Below are positions 26,110-45,072 of a DNA stretch of 64,000 nt, one piece after another. Each line of letters begins with the position of its first letter. Position 1 is the first letter of the stretch. Location of the stretch: the NCBI GenBank assembly GCA_030654175.1, contig JAURXZ010000030.1, positions 62,001-126,000 of the forward strand. The letters are read 5' to 3'. Under the pieces are notes generated by a model that searched no databases, had not been told where the DNA came from, and was given only the letters and a program-made list of their open reading frames with translations. Position numbers and translations under genes: made by a program. Origin of the DNA: Bacteroidia bacterium. GTDB lineage: Bacteria; Bacteroidota; Bacteroidia; 2-12-FULL-35-15.

Positions 26110-29100
26110 TTGAATAAATTTAAAATAATATTCCTAAGTATACTTCTCCTTTCGAGCATATTTGATTCTTTTGCTCAAAATTATAATTTCCGCAATTTTA
26201 CAGTTGAAGATGGATTGGCCCAATCACAAATATTATCCATGTGTCAGGATAAAAATGGAAATATTTGGTTTGGAACAAACCGAGGTGGCATCAGCATTTA
26301 TGATGGAAATAAATTTACCACCTTCAATGAGAATGATAGTTTAATAAATAATGTAGTCTATTCTATCACTGAACTTAATAACGGAACGCTCCTTTTTGGA
26401 ACAAATGGAGGCTTAAGTATGTTATCTGGAAAAAACATTACAAACTTTACCGATAAAAATGGTTTACCACATAATCGCGTATTTAAAACTATTCAGGATA
26501 AAAATGGCACCGTTTGGATAGGCACAGCCAAAGGTCTTTGTCAATTATCAGGGAATAAAATAATACCATTTATCGAGGATACCTTGCTTAATAAAGCCAA
26601 TATTTTTACTATGTATTCAGATAAAGGAAACAACATATGGTTCGGAACAATGGAGTATGGGCTTATAAAATATAATCTAAAAACGAAAAAAATCAATTAT
26701 TTTAATGCATCAAACGGATTGAATGACAACTTCATTTGGACCATTAATGAGGATCTTCAAGGCAATATCTATGTTGGAACTAATCCAGGAATAAGTAGAA
26801 TTAGTCCTTTAGGAATTATTGAAAAAATTAATATTAAAGGAGCAGAAAATATTGGCTTTAGAAATATTATTGCTGACCATGAAAACAATTTATGGTTTGC
26901 AACACCAAAAGGCGTTTACAAATATGATCACCATACCTACAAATTTTATAACGAAAAAAACGGATTGTCAGGCAATAGCGTTTACTGTGCCTTAGAAGAT
27001 AGGGAAGGAAATATGTGGTTTGGAATACACGGAATTGGGGTTTCAAAATTTAGTGGTGAAGCTTTTACTTCCTATAGCACAAAAGACAGCTTGCCAGGAG
27101 ACTATATTACATCTTTATTTCAGGATTCTAAAAAAAATATGTGGATGGGTGTTAAAGGTTTTGGTGTCTGCAAAATGAAAAGCAATAAAATAACAAATTA
27201 TAAATTGGATCCCAAAAATTTAGAAAACTCAATTGTTGATAATGAAATACAAGCTATTTGCGAAGATAATAATGGCAATATGTATTTTGGGGGGCTTTAT
27301 AAGGGAATGAGCATATTTAATGGAACTTCATTTCAAAATTTTGATGATTCAGATGGATTACCCGGCAGTAATATATTTGCGATTACTAAAGATCATAATG
27401 GTACGATTTGGATTGGAACAGAAAAGGGATTATGTTTTTTAAAAGATGGCAAAATCGAAATAATTGAGGCCATAAAAAAAATAAAAACAGAAAGCGGCAG
27501 CTTACCAATCTATTCCATTTTTGAAGATAGCAATCGAAACCTTTGGCTGGCAACGGAAAATGGTGTATTAAAATACGATCGAAAAAGCGTTGTAAAGTAT
27601 AGTAAGCTTAATGGTTTTACAGATAACAGAGTAATCTCAATTGTGCAGGACACAAAGGGGAATATATGGTTTGGCACAAATGATGGAGTATTCCGTTATG
27701 ATAACTCTGATTTCAAAAAAATTGACCAAAATAACGGTCTGGCTTCAAACGTTGTGTATTTTATTGAGTTTGACATGGCGAATAATTTATGGGTAGCTAC
27801 CACAAAAGGCATTGACAGAATTAATCTTTCCATTTATAATTCAAGCAACAAAATAGAAATACGCCATTTTGATAAAGACGATGGCTTAAAAGGTATGGAG
27901 TACAATGGGAATGCTAAATTTAAAGATAGCGATGGTAATTTATGGTTTGGAACAATTAAAGGGGTTACGGTTTACAATCCGCACTTTGCAAAAGTTAATA
28001 GAAAAGAAGCATTAACTAGAATTACGGGAATACGTTTATTTTTTGAGAATGCAGAAAAGGAGTTAAGCCAATACTCAAGCGGCCTAGACAGCCTTGCATT
28101 CTTGCCAAAAAATTTAGTTTTGCCGTATACTAAAAATCACATCACATTTGATTTTATCGGAGTTTGTATCACTGACCCTAACAAAGTAAAATATCAATTC
28201 AAATTGGAGGGTATTGATAATGATTGGTTCCCGCCTTCGTCAAAAACCGAAGCTACTTATTCATCATTACCACCTGGTGAATATACTTTCCATTTAAAAG
28301 CAATGAATAATGATGGTTTATGGAACAAAAAAGACGTAACCTATACATTTAGCATTCTCCCTCCCTGGTATCAAACCTGGCGGTTCAGAACGCTTTCTGG
28401 ATTTTTAATTATTGGTTCGGTTGTTGGCTTTTTTTATTACAGAACAGCCACTTTACGCAAACGTCAAAAACAATTGGAACAAACTGTTTTGGAAAGAACC
28501 GCTGAAGTTGTTTTACAAAAAGATGAAGCGGAAAAACAAAAAGATATAGCAGATAGCCAGCGTGTGATATCTGAGGAATTAAGAGAAATTTCAGAACAAC
28601 AAAAACACATTGTAGAAAAAAAGCAAAAAGAAATAGTAGATTCTATTACCTATGCAAAACGGATACAAACTGCTTTGCTTACCAGTGATGAGTATATAAA
28701 AAGTAATTTGCCGGCCGATCATTTTATTTTGTTTAAGCCAAAAGATATTGTAAGTGGTGATTTTTACTGGGCATTAAGCATTGCTCGTATACCAGGCTGG
28801 GATTTAGGTACCAACACAATAAAATTGTCTAATTCCAGAATTCCGAAAAACACTTTTTATATAGTAACAGCAGATTGTACGGGTCATGGCGTACCCGGGG
28901 CCTTTATGAGTATGCTCAATATCTCATTCCTGAACGAAAATATTGTAGATCATGGTATACGCCTGCCACATGATGTGCTTAATGCACAGCGGAAAGATAT
29001 TATAGAAGCTCTAAATCCTATTGGAAGTACTGAAGAATCCAAAGATGGAATGGATTGTGTCCTTTGCGTTTACGATTTTGATAAGATGCTTTTGCATTTT

Positions 29101-29445
29101 GCTGGAGCAAATAATCCTTTATGGTTAGTTCGTAATGGGGAATTGAAAGAATACAAGGCCGACAAAATGCCGGTTGGGAAATACACCGAATCCCCTCCAT
29201 CTTTTACCTTACAAACAATAGAACTGCAAAAGGATGATATTATTTATACATCTACTGATGGCTTTGCCGATCAGTTTGGGATTACCGGCAAAAAATTAAT
29301 GAAGAAAAAATTCAAAGAAGAATTGCTTAAAATTCATACGCAACCAATGATTGAACAAAAGGAATATCTGAGCCGTTTTTTCAAAAACTGGAAAGGTACT
29401 TTAGAACAAGTTGATGATGTTTGTGTGATCGGAATACGCATTTAA
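26110..29445 (+). CDS. Two-component-type propeller sensor with SpoIIE (PP2C) phosphatase output
   Basis: The 1111-residue protein has a signal sequence (to DSFAQ), about a dozen Reg_prop repeats (GNIWFGT-type, residues ~22-640), a Y_Y_Y domain (about 677-750), one TM (about 762-780), a coiled coil (about 785-840) and a SpoIIE/PP2C phosphatase domain. Metal-binding motifs are intact: KDIVSGDFYW, ADCTGHGVPGAFMS, STDGFADQFG and VDDVCVIGI. The architecture resembles hybrid two-component sensors, but the kinase is replaced by a Ser/Thr phosphatase. TTG 26110 is the only start after an in-frame stop at 26095 that keeps the signal peptide. Its phosphoprotein target is unknown; the SiaC-like protein at 43.6 kb is one candidate. 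Confidence 0.92.
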   Translation: MNKFKIIFLSILLLSSIFDSFAQNYNFRNFTVEDGLAQSQILSMCQDKNGNIWFGTNRGGISIYDGNKFTTFNENDSLINNVVYSITELNNGTLLFGTNGGLSMLSGKNITNFTDKNGLPHNRVFKTIQDKNGTVWIGTAKGLCQLSGNKIIPFIEDTLLNKANIFTMYSDKGNNIWFGTMEYGLIKYNLKTKKINYFNASNGLNDNFIWTINEDLQGNIYVGTNPGISRISPLGIIEKINIKGAENIGFRNIIADHENNLWFATPKGVYKYDHHTYKFYNEKNGLSGNSVYCALEDREGNMWFGIHGIGVSKFSGEAFTSYSTKDSLPGDYITSLFQDSKKNMWMGVKGFGVCKMKSNKITNYKLDPKNLENSIVDNEIQAICEDNNGNMYFGGLYKGMSIFNGTSFQNFDDSDGLPGSNIFAITKDHNGTIWIGTEKGLCFLKDGKIEIIEAIKKIKTESGSLPIYSIFEDSNRNLWLATENGVLKYDRKSVVKYSKLNGFTDNRVISIVQDTKGNIWFGTNDGVFRYDNSDFKKIDQNNGLASNVVYFIEFDMANNLWVATTKGIDRINLSIYNSSNKIEIRHFDKDDGLKGMEYNGNAKFKDSDGNLWFGTIKGVTVYNPHFAKVNRKEALTRITGIRLFFENAEKELSQYSSGLDSLAFLPKNLVLPYTKNHITFDFIGVCITDPNKVKYQFKLEGIDNDWFPPSSKTEATYSSLPPGEYTFHLKAMNNDGLWNKKDVTYTFSILPPWYQTWRFRTLSGFLIIGSVVGFFYYRTATLRKRQKQLEQTVLERTAEVVLQKDEAEKQKDIADSQRVISEELREISEQQKHIVEKKQKEIVDSITYAKRIQTALLTSDEYIKSNLPADHFILFKPKDIVSGDFYWALSIARIPGWDLGTNTIKLSNSRIPKNTFYIVTADCTGHGVPGAFMSMLNISFLNENIVDHGIRLPHDVLNAQRKDIIEALNPIGSTEESKDGMDCVLCVYDFDKMLLHFAGANNPLWLVRNGELKEYKADKMPVGKYTESPPSFTLQTIELQKDDIIYTSTDGFADQFGITGKKLMKKKFKEELLKIHTQPMIEQKEYLSRFFKNWKGTLEQVDDVCVIGIRI

Positions 29446-41514: not shown

Positions 41515-43554
41515 ATGAAAACAATAAATCTCCTTTTATCTTCTATCTTAGTTTCTTGCTTATGTTTGTGCGCAGCAGGAGCTGAAAAAACCAAAACAAA
41601 TAATCAGGATAGTCGAACTATTGATTCACTTCAATTATTTTTAAAGAGCACAAAAACAGATACCTCCCAAGTAAATACTCTAAATACGCTTAGCAAGACG
41701 TACCTAAATATTGGTAATTACCAGAAAGCGATGGAATGTGCACAACAAGCGCAAAATCAAGCAGAAAAAATTAAATATAAGAAAGGACTGGCCCATTCTT
41801 TTACGAATATTGGAAATATTTATCGAAAACAGGGGAATTATGATAAGTCATTGATTTGTCACCTGAACTCCTTAGGAATTCTGGAAGAAATTGGAGATAA
41901 AAAAGAAATAGCAATATCTTATAACAGCATTGGACTTATTTATTTCCGCCTTGGTGACTATGAGAAGGCCATGGAAATTTACAGAAAGTGTTTAAAATAC
42001 CATGAAGAAATTGCCGACAAAAGTGGGATCGCTACTTGCTACAATAACATCGGCAATATCTATCTATTCCAGGAAGACTACGAAAAAGCATTGACCAATT
42101 TCTTTACTTCTTTAAAAATCAGTACGGAAATTTTTGATAAAAAAGGGATGGCCGTTTCCTATAACTCTATCGGAAACACTTATCAGGAAAAAGGAAATTA
42201 TGATTTATCCTTAGACAATCAATTAAAATCCCTAAAAATCAATGAAGAGATCGGAAATAAACAAGGAATAGCAAACTGTTCCGGCAATATCGCAAGTACT
42301 TATGAAAAACTAAAAAAACTAAAAGAGTCCTATCTTTATCTTAATAAATCCTTAAACATCTATCAGGAGATTGGTGACAAACATAATATAATGAAGTCCT
42401 ATTTTGCTTTGTCGGAGTTACACAATAAAATGAATGACTTTAAAAAAGCTTATGAATATTACAAATTTTTCTCGGAAATTAAAGACTCCCTTCTCAATGA
42501 GCATTCTGGAAGACAAATTGCGGAGATGGATGCTAAATATGATTCGGAAGAAAAGGAAAAAAACATTGAGCTTTTAACCAAAGACAAGGCTCTTCAAAAA
42601 GCAGATCTAAACAAACAAAAATTCATACGTAATGGTTTTGTTGCAGGATTAATTCTGGCTTTATTATTAGGTATTATCCTTTACAATAGATTTTTAATAA
42701 AGAAAAAATTAAATACAACGTTAAGAAATTCAAATTACGAATTAATTCAAAAGAATGCTCTTATAGAAAAGCAGAAAGAAAAAATAATAGACAGTATTAC
42801 GTATGCTCAGCATATTCAACAAAGTATTTTGATAGAAGAAAGTGAAATACAAAAAATCCTTCCTGATTCTTTTATTTATTACCAACCAAAAGATATTGTA
42901 AGCGGAGATTTTTACTGGTGCTCAAAAATAGGAGATAAAATTATTTTAGCAGCCATTGATTGTACCGGACATGGTGTACCCGGAGCTTTCATGAGCATGA
43001 TAGGAAACACCCTCTTAAACCAGATCGTAAATGAAAAGCATATTACAACTCCATCTGAAATACTCAGGCAATTAAACAAAGGAATTTATCAGGCGCTGCA
43101 TCAGGAAAAAGAAGAAACATTGTCGCGGGATGGGATGGATATTGCATTGTGCAGCATCGATTACAAAAACAATCAACTGGAATTTGCAGGCGCACAAAAC
43201 CCCTTGTATTTGGTATCAGACAATGAGTTAACCGTGGTAAAAGCCGATAGGCAAACAATAGGTGGTGGTGGAATGATATCAAAGAAAGAAAACCCTTTAA
43301 AAAGAGAATATACGAATCATGTTATTCCAATAAAAAAAGACATGTGTATTTACCTGTTTTCAGATGGGTATATGGATCAGTTCAGGGGAAGCGACAGAAA
43401 AAAATTCGGAATCCACCAGTTTAAAGATCTGATACTGGCTAATCAATCATTGAGTATGCAAAAGCAAAAAGCGCTGATGGTAGAGGAACATGAAAACTGG
43501 AAAGAAAATGCACATCAGATAGATGATATTCTGATAATAGGATTAAGGCTATAG
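41515..43554 (+). CDS. TPR sensor with SpoIIE (PP2C) phosphatase output
   Basis: The 679-residue protein has a signal sequence with Cys-rich end (SCLCLCAAG, possibly a lipobox), about seven TPRs (residues ~40-330, with GNIYRKQGNYDKSL-type units), a coiled segment, a TM at about 372-392 and a SpoIIE/PP2C domain. Catalytic motifs are intact: KDIVSGDFYW, IDCTGHGVPGAFMS, SRDGMDIALC, FSDGYMDQFRG and IDDILIIGLRL. The linker KIIDSITYAQHIQ matches the other SpoIIE protein in the window. It converges on the SiaC-like gene with a single base between stop codons, so it is a likely SiaA-like phosphatase for that protein. Confidence 0.92.
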   Translation: MKTINLLLSSILVSCLCLCAAGAEKTKTNNQDSRTIDSLQLFLKSTKTDTSQVNTLNTLSKTYLNIGNYQKAMECAQQAQNQAEKIKYKKGLAHSFTNIGNIYRKQGNYDKSLICHLNSLGILEEIGDKKEIAISYNSIGLIYFRLGDYEKAMEIYRKCLKYHEEIADKSGIATCYNNIGNIYLFQEDYEKALTNFFTSLKISTEIFDKKGMAVSYNSIGNTYQEKGNYDLSLDNQLKSLKINEEIGNKQGIANCSGNIASTYEKLKKLKESYLYLNKSLNIYQEIGDKHNIMKSYFALSELHNKMNDFKKAYEYYKFFSEIKDSLLNEHSGRQIAEMDAKYDSEEKEKNIELLTKDKALQKADLNKQKFIRNGFVAGLILALLLGIILYNRFLIKKKLNTTLRNSNYELIQKNALIEKQKEKIIDSITYAQHIQQSILIEESEIQKILPDSFIYYQPKDIVSGDFYWCSKIGDKIILAAIDCTGHGVPGAFMSMIGNTLLNQIVNEKHITTPSEILRQLNKGIYQALHQEKEETLSRDGMDIALCSIDYKNNQLEFAGAQNPLYLVSDNELTVVKADRQTIGGGGMISKKENPLKREYTNHVIPIKKDMCIYLFSDGYMDQFRGSDRKKFGIHQFKDLILANQSLSMQKQKALMVEEHENWKENAHQIDDILIIGLRL

Positions 43555-43555
43555 A

Positions 43556-43933
43556 TCAATAGATCTTCACTTCAAAAGGTAATTCCACCATTTCTTTGAT
43601 CTCCAGGCCTCTGTTCCGTATTAATTCATCATCCTTAGCATGATACCAAATAACAGTAACAGGCAGATTATTAGAAGAGAGCTTTTCTAAAATTGTAATT
43701 ATTTCAAAAATCTTTTTTGTAGATGCTGAATTAAAATAATCCAGCTTGAATTCAAAGTGAGTAGTCTGATTTGGAGCCATTATGTATTCCTCCATCCACT
43801 TTAAAACCGGAGAATATAACTTAACAGCATTTTCCGGCAAAGATCTACCTGAAATTTCAAAAACCCCTTTTGATTTATCCAAAATTATTTTGGGAGTATC
43901 ATGTGTTTCTTCTATGATCAAACTTTTCTTCAT
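43556..43933 (-). CDS. SiaC-type regulatory phosphoprotein (DUF1987)
   Basis: 125 residues from ATG 43933 (KKSLIIEETHDTPKIILD). It has the DUF1987/SiaC pattern: GVFEISGRSLPENAVKLYSP, an E/W-rich helix, then FEFKLDYFNSASTKKIFEI. In Pseudomonas SiaC a Thr in this loop is phosphorylated by SiaB and dephosphorylated by SiaA; here the aligned position appears to be Ser (NSAS). It lies 38 bp downstream of the double SiaB gene. An earlier ATG (43987) overlaps the SiaB stop and would allow translational coupling. Confidence 0.88.
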   Translation of the reverse strand: MKKSLIIEETHDTPKIILDKSKGVFEISGRSLPENAVKLYSPVLKWMEEYIMAPNQTTHFEFKLDYFNSASTKKIFEIITILEKLSSNNLPVTVIWYHAKDDELIRNRGLEIKEMVELPFEVKIY

Positions 43934-43971
43934 TCTTTTTTTGATGATTTTTTCTTTTCCAGTATTCGTAT

Positions 43972-45072
43972 TTACATCTGCACACACAATGAAAAAAACG
44001 ACAAATCTTCAATCTCTGGTTTTAGATCGAACATTATCTTCTCACCACTCTCCCGGGCAATATCTATTATTCCAAGACCCGCACCATGTTCATCTGATAT
44101 ACTTTCCTTCAATGTTTTTTTATACAAACCGATCAACTCTTCTTTGTTTAAACTATTTACTTTATTGATCTTGTTCTTTATTTTTTCCGAGGAAGCTGCA
44201 TCTACCATATTTCCGGTACAGATAATATATTTTTGCTCGTTTTTACCGATCATAAATATTGCTTCTTTTTTTCCATTTTGCTGAACAGAATGTTTGGAAA
44301 TATTTTGTAGAATTTCCATAAGAACAAGATATAATTTCTTTTTTATATGGAGTTCTTCCTGCTGTTTGTTCAAATTGTCTTCGATCATTTTCAGCATAGG
44401 AATAACGGTTTCCTGCGAAAAATCCCCCTTATAAACCATTAAAATATTCTCTTTTCGCATTATTTCATGCATCTCCTTAACACTATCCATCGAAATATTG
44501 CTTTTTACATTCACACTACCCTTTCCCTGCATTTTCAACATAAGGTAAAACAGAGAAAGTTTGTCATTCTCATTTTCAAAGTTGAATTCCAATGGGTTCT
44601 CCGATTTTCTTGCCATCTCCACTAATCCTAAGCCTGCGCCACCTTTATCTGAAATTTCCCCACTCGAGAGTATGTCAATATAAAGAGCTTTGATCTGTTC
44701 TCTATCTAAATTATTAAGCTTCTCGAGTTTCCCTTTTAATGCAGGAACCTGCGTATTTTCAATCAAATTGGCAGAAGTAATATAAATACTATCCTGTACA
44801 TTTCTGGTAGAAAATAAGCCGGGGAAGGTAACGGTTCTATTGGCTTTAATTTGAGTATCATTTCCATGCCTGACAATATTCTGGAAACATTCAACAATAA
44901 CAAATGATACTTTATTTCTCATTTCTATCATTTCATGACTGTTATCAATCGAATATTCACTAAGGGCGATTATTTTTTCAGTAATTCCATCACTAAAATC
45001 TCCCTGGTAAACAAAGGAAAGATTGTCGTTGCGCAGGATCTGATAAAATTGACTGATGTGATTTATTTTCAT
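43972..45072 (-). CDS. Tandem double SiaB-family (GHKL-type) protein kinase
   Basis: 366 residues comprising two homologous SiaB-like domains, about 1-185 and 193-366; usual SiaB proteins are roughly one such domain. Each keeps the ATP-binding features of the GHKL fold: N box FVIVECFQNIVRHG (domain 1) and LVLMEILQNISKHS (domain 2); G box KGGAGLGLVEMAR and EHGAGLGIIDIAR. Both also begin with a VYQGDFS/VYKGDFS strand. No TM or sensor domain. It probably phosphorylates the SiaC-like protein encoded just downstream. Start ATG 45072 is chosen over the upstream ATG of an extended frame. Confidence 0.85.
   Translation of the reverse strand: MKINHISQFYQILRNDNLSFVYQGDFSDGITEKIIALSEYSIDNSHEMIEMRNKVSFVIVECFQNIVRHGNDTQIKANRTVTFPGLFSTRNVQDSIYITSANLIENTQVPALKGKLEKLNNLDREQIKALYIDILSSGEISDKGGAGLGLVEMARKSENPLEFNFENENDKLSLFYLMLKMQGKGSVNVKSNISMDSVKEMHEIMRKENILMVYKGDFSQETVIPMLKMIEDNLNKQQEELHIKKKLYLVLMEILQNISKHSVQQNGKKEAIFMIGKNEQKYIICTGNMVDAASSEKIKNKINKVNSLNKEELIGLYKKTLKESISDEHGAGLGIIDIARESGEKIMFDLKPEIEDLSFFSLCVQM

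Follow-up and report, generated by a model that had tools for sequence, protein, structure and literature searches.

At positions 41515-45072 of a 64,000-nucleotide stretch of Bacteroidia bacterium DNA (hereafter the window; contig JAURXZ010000030.1 of assembly GCA_030654175.1), a kinase made of two SiaB-family domains in one chain, which we refer to as the double, lies next to a SiaC-family phosphoprotein and a putative membrane phosphatase with tetratricopeptide repeats (TPR) and a SpoIIE domain. The SiaB-SiaB fusion seems to have arisen at least twice, and two species from the same genus as the window encode an unfused counterpart as a pair of neighboring genes. This twice-evolved fusion and its unfused counterpart are new here and are our most informative findings. 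We consider it probable (roughly 0.6) that the locus is a SiaABC-type partner switch in which a single-chain SiaB heterodimer phosphorylates SiaC on Ser69 and is opposed by the phosphatase.

Both halves of the double kinase carry a predicted SiaB fold and active-site motifs

The double kinase gene (43972-45072, minus strand; 366 aa, no internal stops) matches the Pfam family PF19788 (DUF6272) twice, with 222 bits against a cut-off of 26.6, and scores 269.3 bits with the NCBIfam model SiaB_fam_kinase (NF038262, cut-off 85). The domain family is already named in NCBIfam, and the proteins are thus annotated. The Pseudomonas SiaB equivalog (NF038264, cut-off 225 bits) is not reached, at 131.1 bits. 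The N-half (residues 1-187; 44512-45072, minus strand) contains the N-box E61-C-F-Q64-N65-I-V-R-H, N102, and the ATP-lid KGGAGLG at 143-149, with GAGLG at 145-149. The C-half (residues 195-366; 43975-44490, minus strand) contains E253-I-L-Q256-N257-I-S-K-H, N288, and GAGLG at 330-334. Each half therefore has E..QN..(R/K)H, a later conserved Asn, and a GxGLG lid, as a first-pass annotation made from the letters of the window had read for the N- and G-boxes. In the excerpts of PMC7647112 available, Glu61 of Pseudomonas aeruginosa SiaB is the predicted catalytic residue; by analogy, Glu61 (44890-44892) and Glu253 (44314-44316) are taken as its putative counterparts.

The predicted model of the full chain has a predicted local distance difference test score (pLDDT) of 86.6 and a predicted template modeling score (pTM) of 0.86, and its C-half matches P. 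aeruginosa SiaB (6kko_A) with Z 16.3 and 1.9 Å over 166 residues. The N-half, modeled alone (pLDDT 86.1, pTM 0.81), matches the same structure with Z 19.1 and 2.8 Å over 167 residues. In these models, both halves are SiaB folds with an N-box and a GxG lid. Structure prediction of each half was a check that the annotation had proposed, and the folds together with the family profiles bear out its assignment of a SiaA/B/C-type partner-switch set.

Residues E61, Q64, N65, N102, G145, G147, L148, G149, E253, Q256, and N257 are invariant in 72/72 aligned doubles, although the scan that supplied 71 of them was itself seeded with two of the motifs, so the conservation counts are partly built in. Doubles were also gathered through family or profile searches that used no motif seeds; when four residues per half (E, N, and two G) are tested, both halves score as intact in 19/19 of those from the genus and 48/50 from the class. 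The N-half motifs are lost in one class double (L186) and the C-half motifs in another (L229, the same gene as L182); none has lost both. A further double, L184, passes the test, yet its C-half reads E..RN with a shifted G-box, and its motifs look worn. In L151 and L080 of the named-genome set, the G-box of the C-half is clearly degenerate.

A simple G-box pattern was failed by 17 of 99 C-halves versus 1 of 99 N-halves in a set partly motif-selected towards the N-half. Column 330 of the C-half is G in 30/72 aligned doubles, while the matching N-half G145 does not vary. Conservation is also higher among N-halves, at 39.7% mean pairwise identity against 33.4% for C-halves (N above C in 859/990 pairs), and on these alignments N-halves evolve more slowly. 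Judged by the motifs, a strict active/pseudo split is not the rule, and either half can be lost.

The fusion seems to have arisen at least twice

One tree combined 45 doubles with 14 single SiaB proteins from the same loci and P. aeruginosa SiaB. In it, the N-halves form one clade (SH-like approximate likelihood ratio test 100) and the C-halves need one more change; the internal order of the two groups largely matches. A bootstrapped 57-row tree gives 100/99 for the N-clade and a weaker 85/88 for the C-clade. Because the N- and C-clades are separate and match in order, a single old fusion appears to lie behind nearly all sampled doubles. The genus doubles make up about four paralogous groups in the 45-double tree, which was built without the genus loci L063, L067, and L070 and with one third of the named doubles. 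That tree, the SiaC tree described below, and the first tree of the second lineage, which was further thinned, were quick searches.

The doubles of one family (f65; L180 and L183) fall outside the main N- and C-clades. The N-halves of this family join B1 (97/93), the upstream gene of an unfused SiaB-SiaB pair, and the C-halves join B2 (98/96), the downstream one; the pair is found in two species congeneric with the window, G001 (L056) and G021 (L071). B1 and B2 are separated by 17-18 bases; their frames differ in G001, and in G021 they share a frame that a stop codon interrupts. The gene order is SpoIIE, B1, B2, SiaC in G001 and SpoIIE, fused B1B2, SiaC in f65; the G021 contig starts at the SiaB pair, and no SiaC follows. 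Fused and unfused forms share 47% identity. In both species, B1 reads SIEVALI where B2 has GAGLGFI and has also lost the N-box His, while B2 is intact. These groupings suggest a second origin of the fusion. Fusion of partners that are also found as neighbors is classic evidence that they work together.

Adjoining the unfused pair, L056:3859-4962 encodes a 367-aa protein in which a SiaC domain has a long N-terminal extension.

The double kinase is an old and common form in Bacteroidota

The first-pass annotation had regarded the double kinase as unusual and had itself said that novelty would fall were the fusion a common form. A search for other fused SiaB-SiaB proteins largely found it to be one, so rarity as the annotation put it falls at the level of genome, genus, and class. 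The window genome (5.1 Mb, 51 contigs) holds nine DUF6272 domains in six proteins, three of which are doubles. In the genus, DUF6272 occurs in 34/36 genomes and doubles in 11/36, from which 19 doubles were read; an order-wide genome search covered only the genus. An even draw across the class gave SiaB (DUF6272) matches in 202/396 genomes and, with a profile of the double, an open-frame double in at least 54/396 genomes from 20 family-level groups. Here a double was a frame of at least 350 aa covering at least 280 of 368 profile positions, with the listed rows judged by eye; 55 genomes qualified by length and span, and G403, with an in-frame stop and no open double, was left out. This count is a lower bound, as at most five candidates were scored per genome. 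In an even draw across the phylum, any DUF6272 match was found in 23/296 genomes and doubles in the window genome (G000) and G080 only.

A scan of named genomes seeded with the motifs KGG[AG]GLG and E[CS][FL]QN returned at least 546 relatives, with doubles at the best 80 loci (75 from Bacteroidota and five labeled Chlorobiota). Identical C-terminal stretches were counted once. Double-bearing records include Cesiribacter andamanensis AMV16, Cesiribacter sp. SM1, and Nafulsella turpanensis ZLM-10, and the closest named-genome match over the double, among the matches listed, is a lake metagenome-assembled genome at 93% identity. None of 35 pattern matches on viral contigs is a relative; 17 plasmid records matched, of which the 10 listed each cover a single domain in about 540 bases. 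We considered a rare or chimeric gene and rejected it because doubles occur in many independent assemblies. Across these surveys, the double is an old, common form in Bacteroidota.

SiaC accompanies most doubles and keeps a phosphorylatable residue

The SiaC gene (43556-43933, minus strand; 125 aa from ATG) lies downstream of the double kinase gene on the same strand; an alternative GTG start at 43987 would overlap that gene. The protein scores 125.3 bits with PF09345 (cut-off 24.5) and does not reach the Pseudomonas SiaC equivalog (NF038265, 85.3 bits against a cut-off of 150). Its Ser69 (43727-43729) aligns with T68 of P. aeruginosa SiaC, the phosphosite according to the available part of PMC7647112, and is therefore a putative phosphosite. 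This position is S or T in 85/85 aligned SiaC domains paired with doubles.

A SiaC follows or is fused to 87 of 99 doubles, with exactly one following in 70 and two to four in nine. By census, SiaC directly follows 18/19 genus doubles and 34/50 class doubles, with one more placed after a second double. In a tree of 52 double-paired, 29 single-paired, and 13 other SiaC rows, no single-kinase SiaC lies inside the groups of double-paired SiaC, and the groups are not clean once the 13 other rows (orphans and extra copies) are included; this tree took every second named locus and has few columns and many weak forks. A mirror-tree comparison of each half with SiaC gave distance correlations of r 0.621 and 0.623.

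We also observed variant SiaC arrangements. Triple SiaB-SiaB-SiaC fusions of 505-518 aa make up 7/79 doubles of the named set (L126, L129, L130, L132, L133, L152, and L153). In G001, a single SiaB is fused to SiaC (L057:4605-5567, 320 aa) directly after a TPR-SpoIIE gene, and a tandem SiaC-SiaC fusion (L055:9428-10249, 273 aa) comes after a SiaB-SiaC pair. In the window genome, L023:7548-9088 holds an orphan SiaC with a convergent SpoIIE gene and, over the 15 kb read, without a kinase; in the SiaC tree it falls, weakly, among the SiaC of doubles.

A convergent SpoIIE gene is a recurring mark of the doubles

The TPR-SpoIIE gene (41515-43554, plus strand; 679 aa), to which we assign a SiaA-like role, encodes a hydrophobic signal-like N-terminus, TPR repeats, a hydrophobic segment near residues 369-397 that is probably transmembrane, a linker, and a SpoIIE/PP2C domain at 474-678. 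PF07228 matches with 69 bits (cut-off 25) over profile positions 3-190 of 192, and the TPR repeats are matched too. The SiaA phosphatase equivalog (NF038263, cut-off 700 bits) is not reached, at 179.7 bits, with only residues 399-679 aligned. The order of these parts suggests that the TPR sensor is likely periplasmic and the phosphatase domain cytoplasmic. Open reading frames and profile matches thus uphold the adjacency of phosphatase, SiaC, and two-domain kinase described in the annotation.

A convergent SpoIIE gene stands beside 16/18 readable genus doubles versus 0/53 readable single-SiaB genes (from 55 read, a subset of the genus singles), or 0/28 after omitting one conserved single locus. 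Of the remaining genus doubles, one runs off its contig and two have other genes in this position (L068, L070). Fisher tests give p 5e-14, or 1.5e-10 without the conserved single locus; these values overstate the evidence because related loci are treated as independent. Where SpoIIE lies directly beside single modules outside the conserved locus (7/30), it is co-directional (two downstream, five upstream). For class doubles, SpoIIE is adjacent in 27/50: convergent in 13, co-directional downstream in 11, and upstream in three. In the named set, it is convergent in 23/72 readable doubles and co-directional downstream in four. Two doubles at L194 share one phosphatase, which is counted twice, and the flanks of loci L025-L053 extend only about 1.5 kb, so that a phosphatase further off would be missed. 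From gene order, the convergent layout is a recurring but not universal mark of doubles.

As the annotation noted, one base (43555) separates the stops of the phosphatase and SiaC genes; a simple scan for terminator-like sites gave none at this point. It had also called the tail-to-tail placement unusual, which does not hold, given that the placement recurs at many double-kinase loci. The one-base gap was rejected as a special feature, since convergent genes in these genomes commonly overlap at their stops. Convergent overlaps of exactly 4 bases were counted in 13/40 SiaC-SpoIIE pairs versus 10/75 other convergent pairs (Fisher p 0.026, uncorrected for relatedness).

Elsewhere in the window genome, a single SiaB-SiaC pair (L020:7311-8249) lies beside two genes that we take to encode the Der and Era GTPases. 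None of the 25 single SiaB genes of this type read in the genus, with short flanks, has SpoIIE directly beside it. The genome has 52 SpoIIE matches, one of which is overlapped by a 1111-aa protein at window positions 26110-29445 that presumably contains a propeller-type sensor.

No conserved output gene was seen beside the module

The annotation had found no cyclase at the locus, and this agrees with our profile search: there is no GGDEF match on the window's contig and no diguanylate cyclase beside the module. Only one GGDEF protein turned up in the assembly; its single frame contains two GGDEF matches and belongs to a 21-kb contig (L156, G000:C7:10000-20000). The G+C content of that contig is 43% over the 10 kb read versus 36% for the window, and we take its neighbors to be proteobacterial (TolC-like); the contig is probably assembly contamination.

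Nor was a conserved output gene seen among the checked neighbors of modules without SpoIIE, which were in part compared over the start of their sequence only and vary by locus (PcrB, chorismate synthase, PriA, adenylate kinase, and others). In one family (f55), six doubles without SiaC (L184, L220, L221, L222, L223, L225) have a gene of 664-669 aa 31-39 bases downstream, the start of which we assume to resemble BatA-type proteins. The seventh f55 double (L193) runs up to the edge of its contig.

Proposed mechanism and alternatives

We hypothesize that the two SiaB halves form a covalently joined, diverged GHKL heterodimer that, using ATP, would phosphorylate Ser69 of the adjacent SiaC. Phosphorylation would switch SiaC off for an unlinked target; we place the off state here because phosphorylated SiaC is the off state in P. 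aeruginosa, in the portion of PMC8457831 available. On a signal, the convergently encoded TPR-SpoIIE membrane phosphatase would dephosphorylate SiaC. Fusion fixes a 1:1 pairing of unequal halves, so one half can specialize while the pair keeps a working active site; the specialized half may serve regulation, docking, or catalysis with a looser lid. The full-chain pTM of 0.86 fits a defined arrangement of the two predicted halves. The proposal also draws on the SiaB profiles and folds of both halves, their separate and largely matching groups in the trees, the SiaC beside most doubles with its S/T residue, the SiaC tree, the second lineage with its degenerate B1, the two class doubles with motif loss in one half, and the recurring SpoIIE neighbor. 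What the data show is the gene content, the motifs, the predicted fold, the repeated gene neighborhood, two origins in the trees, and motif loss in one half or partner of some lineages; kinase activity, phosphosite, dimer, switch direction, division of labor, and membrane topology are inferred from these.

Several observations weigh against this proposal. The pTM is no proof of a dimer-like interface, and contact between the halves is assumed. The intact motifs of 48/50 class and 19/19 genus doubles argue against a simple active/pseudo split, and the mirror-tree correlation singled out neither half as the SiaC binder. No adjacent SiaC is present in 15/50 class doubles (one at a contig end) and no adjacent SpoIIE in 23/50. 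With 52 SpoIIE matches in the genome, choosing the neighboring one as the SiaC phosphatase is guesswork from position. Just two of the genomes studied supplied the unfused pair, and in G021 the shared frame, the contig start, and the missing SiaC make a broken fusion possible.

A broader version, which we hold more tentatively, is that tandem SiaB proteins are obligate heterodimers, repeatedly fused in Bacteroidota, in which an allosteric and sometimes pseudokinase half or partner gates SiaC phosphorylation by the other. It seems unlikely to us that the double is instead two independent kinases on one string, a hub whose halves phosphorylate different SiaC proteins, the adjacent one and an orphan. 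Such a hub would suit the 67/69 doubles found without motif seeds in which both halves pass the motif test, the nine SiaC genes and nine SiaB domains of the window genome, the two SiaC there (L022, L023) without SiaB within the roughly 15 kb read, and the nine doubles followed by several SiaC genes. However, among genomes of the genus the number of SiaB matches does not follow the number of SiaC (2 vs 8 in G035; 9 vs 7 in G006), 70/99 doubles are followed by a single SiaC, and the distances of N- and C-halves correlate equally with it.

We give a similarly low probability to the idea that the C-half only regulates or scaffolds and the N-half is the sole SiaC kinase. The greater conservation of N-halves, the variable column 330 opposite G145, and the excess of C-half G-box failures in the partly N-half-selected set would follow from it, but E253, Q256, and N257 do not vary in the 72 aligned doubles, and the C-half passes in 49/50 class doubles. 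Moreover, L186 lost its N-half motifs instead, and the G-box loss in the unfused pair affects the first gene, the N-like one. Least probable of all is an ordinary domain duplication without functional consequence, the fused form behaving like single SiaB: single modules do coexist in the same genomes and share the fold, but the fusion is present in 20 family-level groups, mostly with both active sites kept, seems to have arisen twice in the trees, and goes with its own SiaC lineages.

Under the heterodimer proposal, the locus would show a symmetric anti-sigma-type kinase becoming asymmetric and regulated. In the double, nature provides a one-chain partner-switch kinase whose active sites are separately mutable, and the fused and unfused pair offers matched material on why such kinases pair. 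A built-in asymmetric kinase dimer is described for no partner-switch system in the open-licence literature, among the matches listed.

Comparison with known systems

SiaB is matched widely in the class, as counted above, yet among the matches listed in the open-licence PMC literature, SiaB/SiaC work is in Pseudomonas only, with none on the double. In the parts available of the sources on P. aeruginosa SiaA/SiaB/SiaC/SiaD (6kko; PMC7647112, PMC8457831), that system resembles the present one in its SpoIIE-type phosphatase, its SiaB-family kinase, the S/T of SiaC at the T68 position, and the kinase Glu at the predicted catalytic E61 position. Here, by contrast, the kinase has two SiaB domains in one chain, the phosphatase is of TPR type, convergent, and outside the kinase operon, no SiaD cyclase is adjacent, and the SiaA, SiaB, and SiaC equivalog cut-offs are not reached. 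The slr1658 superfamily regulators (NF047703) give a weak profile match of 46.4 bits, below the cut-off of 100.

The anti-sigma kinases RsbW and SpoIIAB act on a STAS-like phosphoprotein. They share the GHKL protein kinase fold (1tid, 1th8, 6m36; Z about 9 to 12), but they are a weaker structural match than SiaB and have a single domain. No sigma factor was noticed beside the present locus, although no search was aimed at sigma factors, and one clear RsbW-like gene lies elsewhere, away from the locus. Rv1364c of Mycobacterium tuberculosis, with RsbU and RsbW domains (3ke6), likewise joins partner-switch enzymes in one chain. There the fusion is of phosphatase and kinase, whereas here it is of kinase and kinase, to which the triple fusions of the named scan add SiaC.

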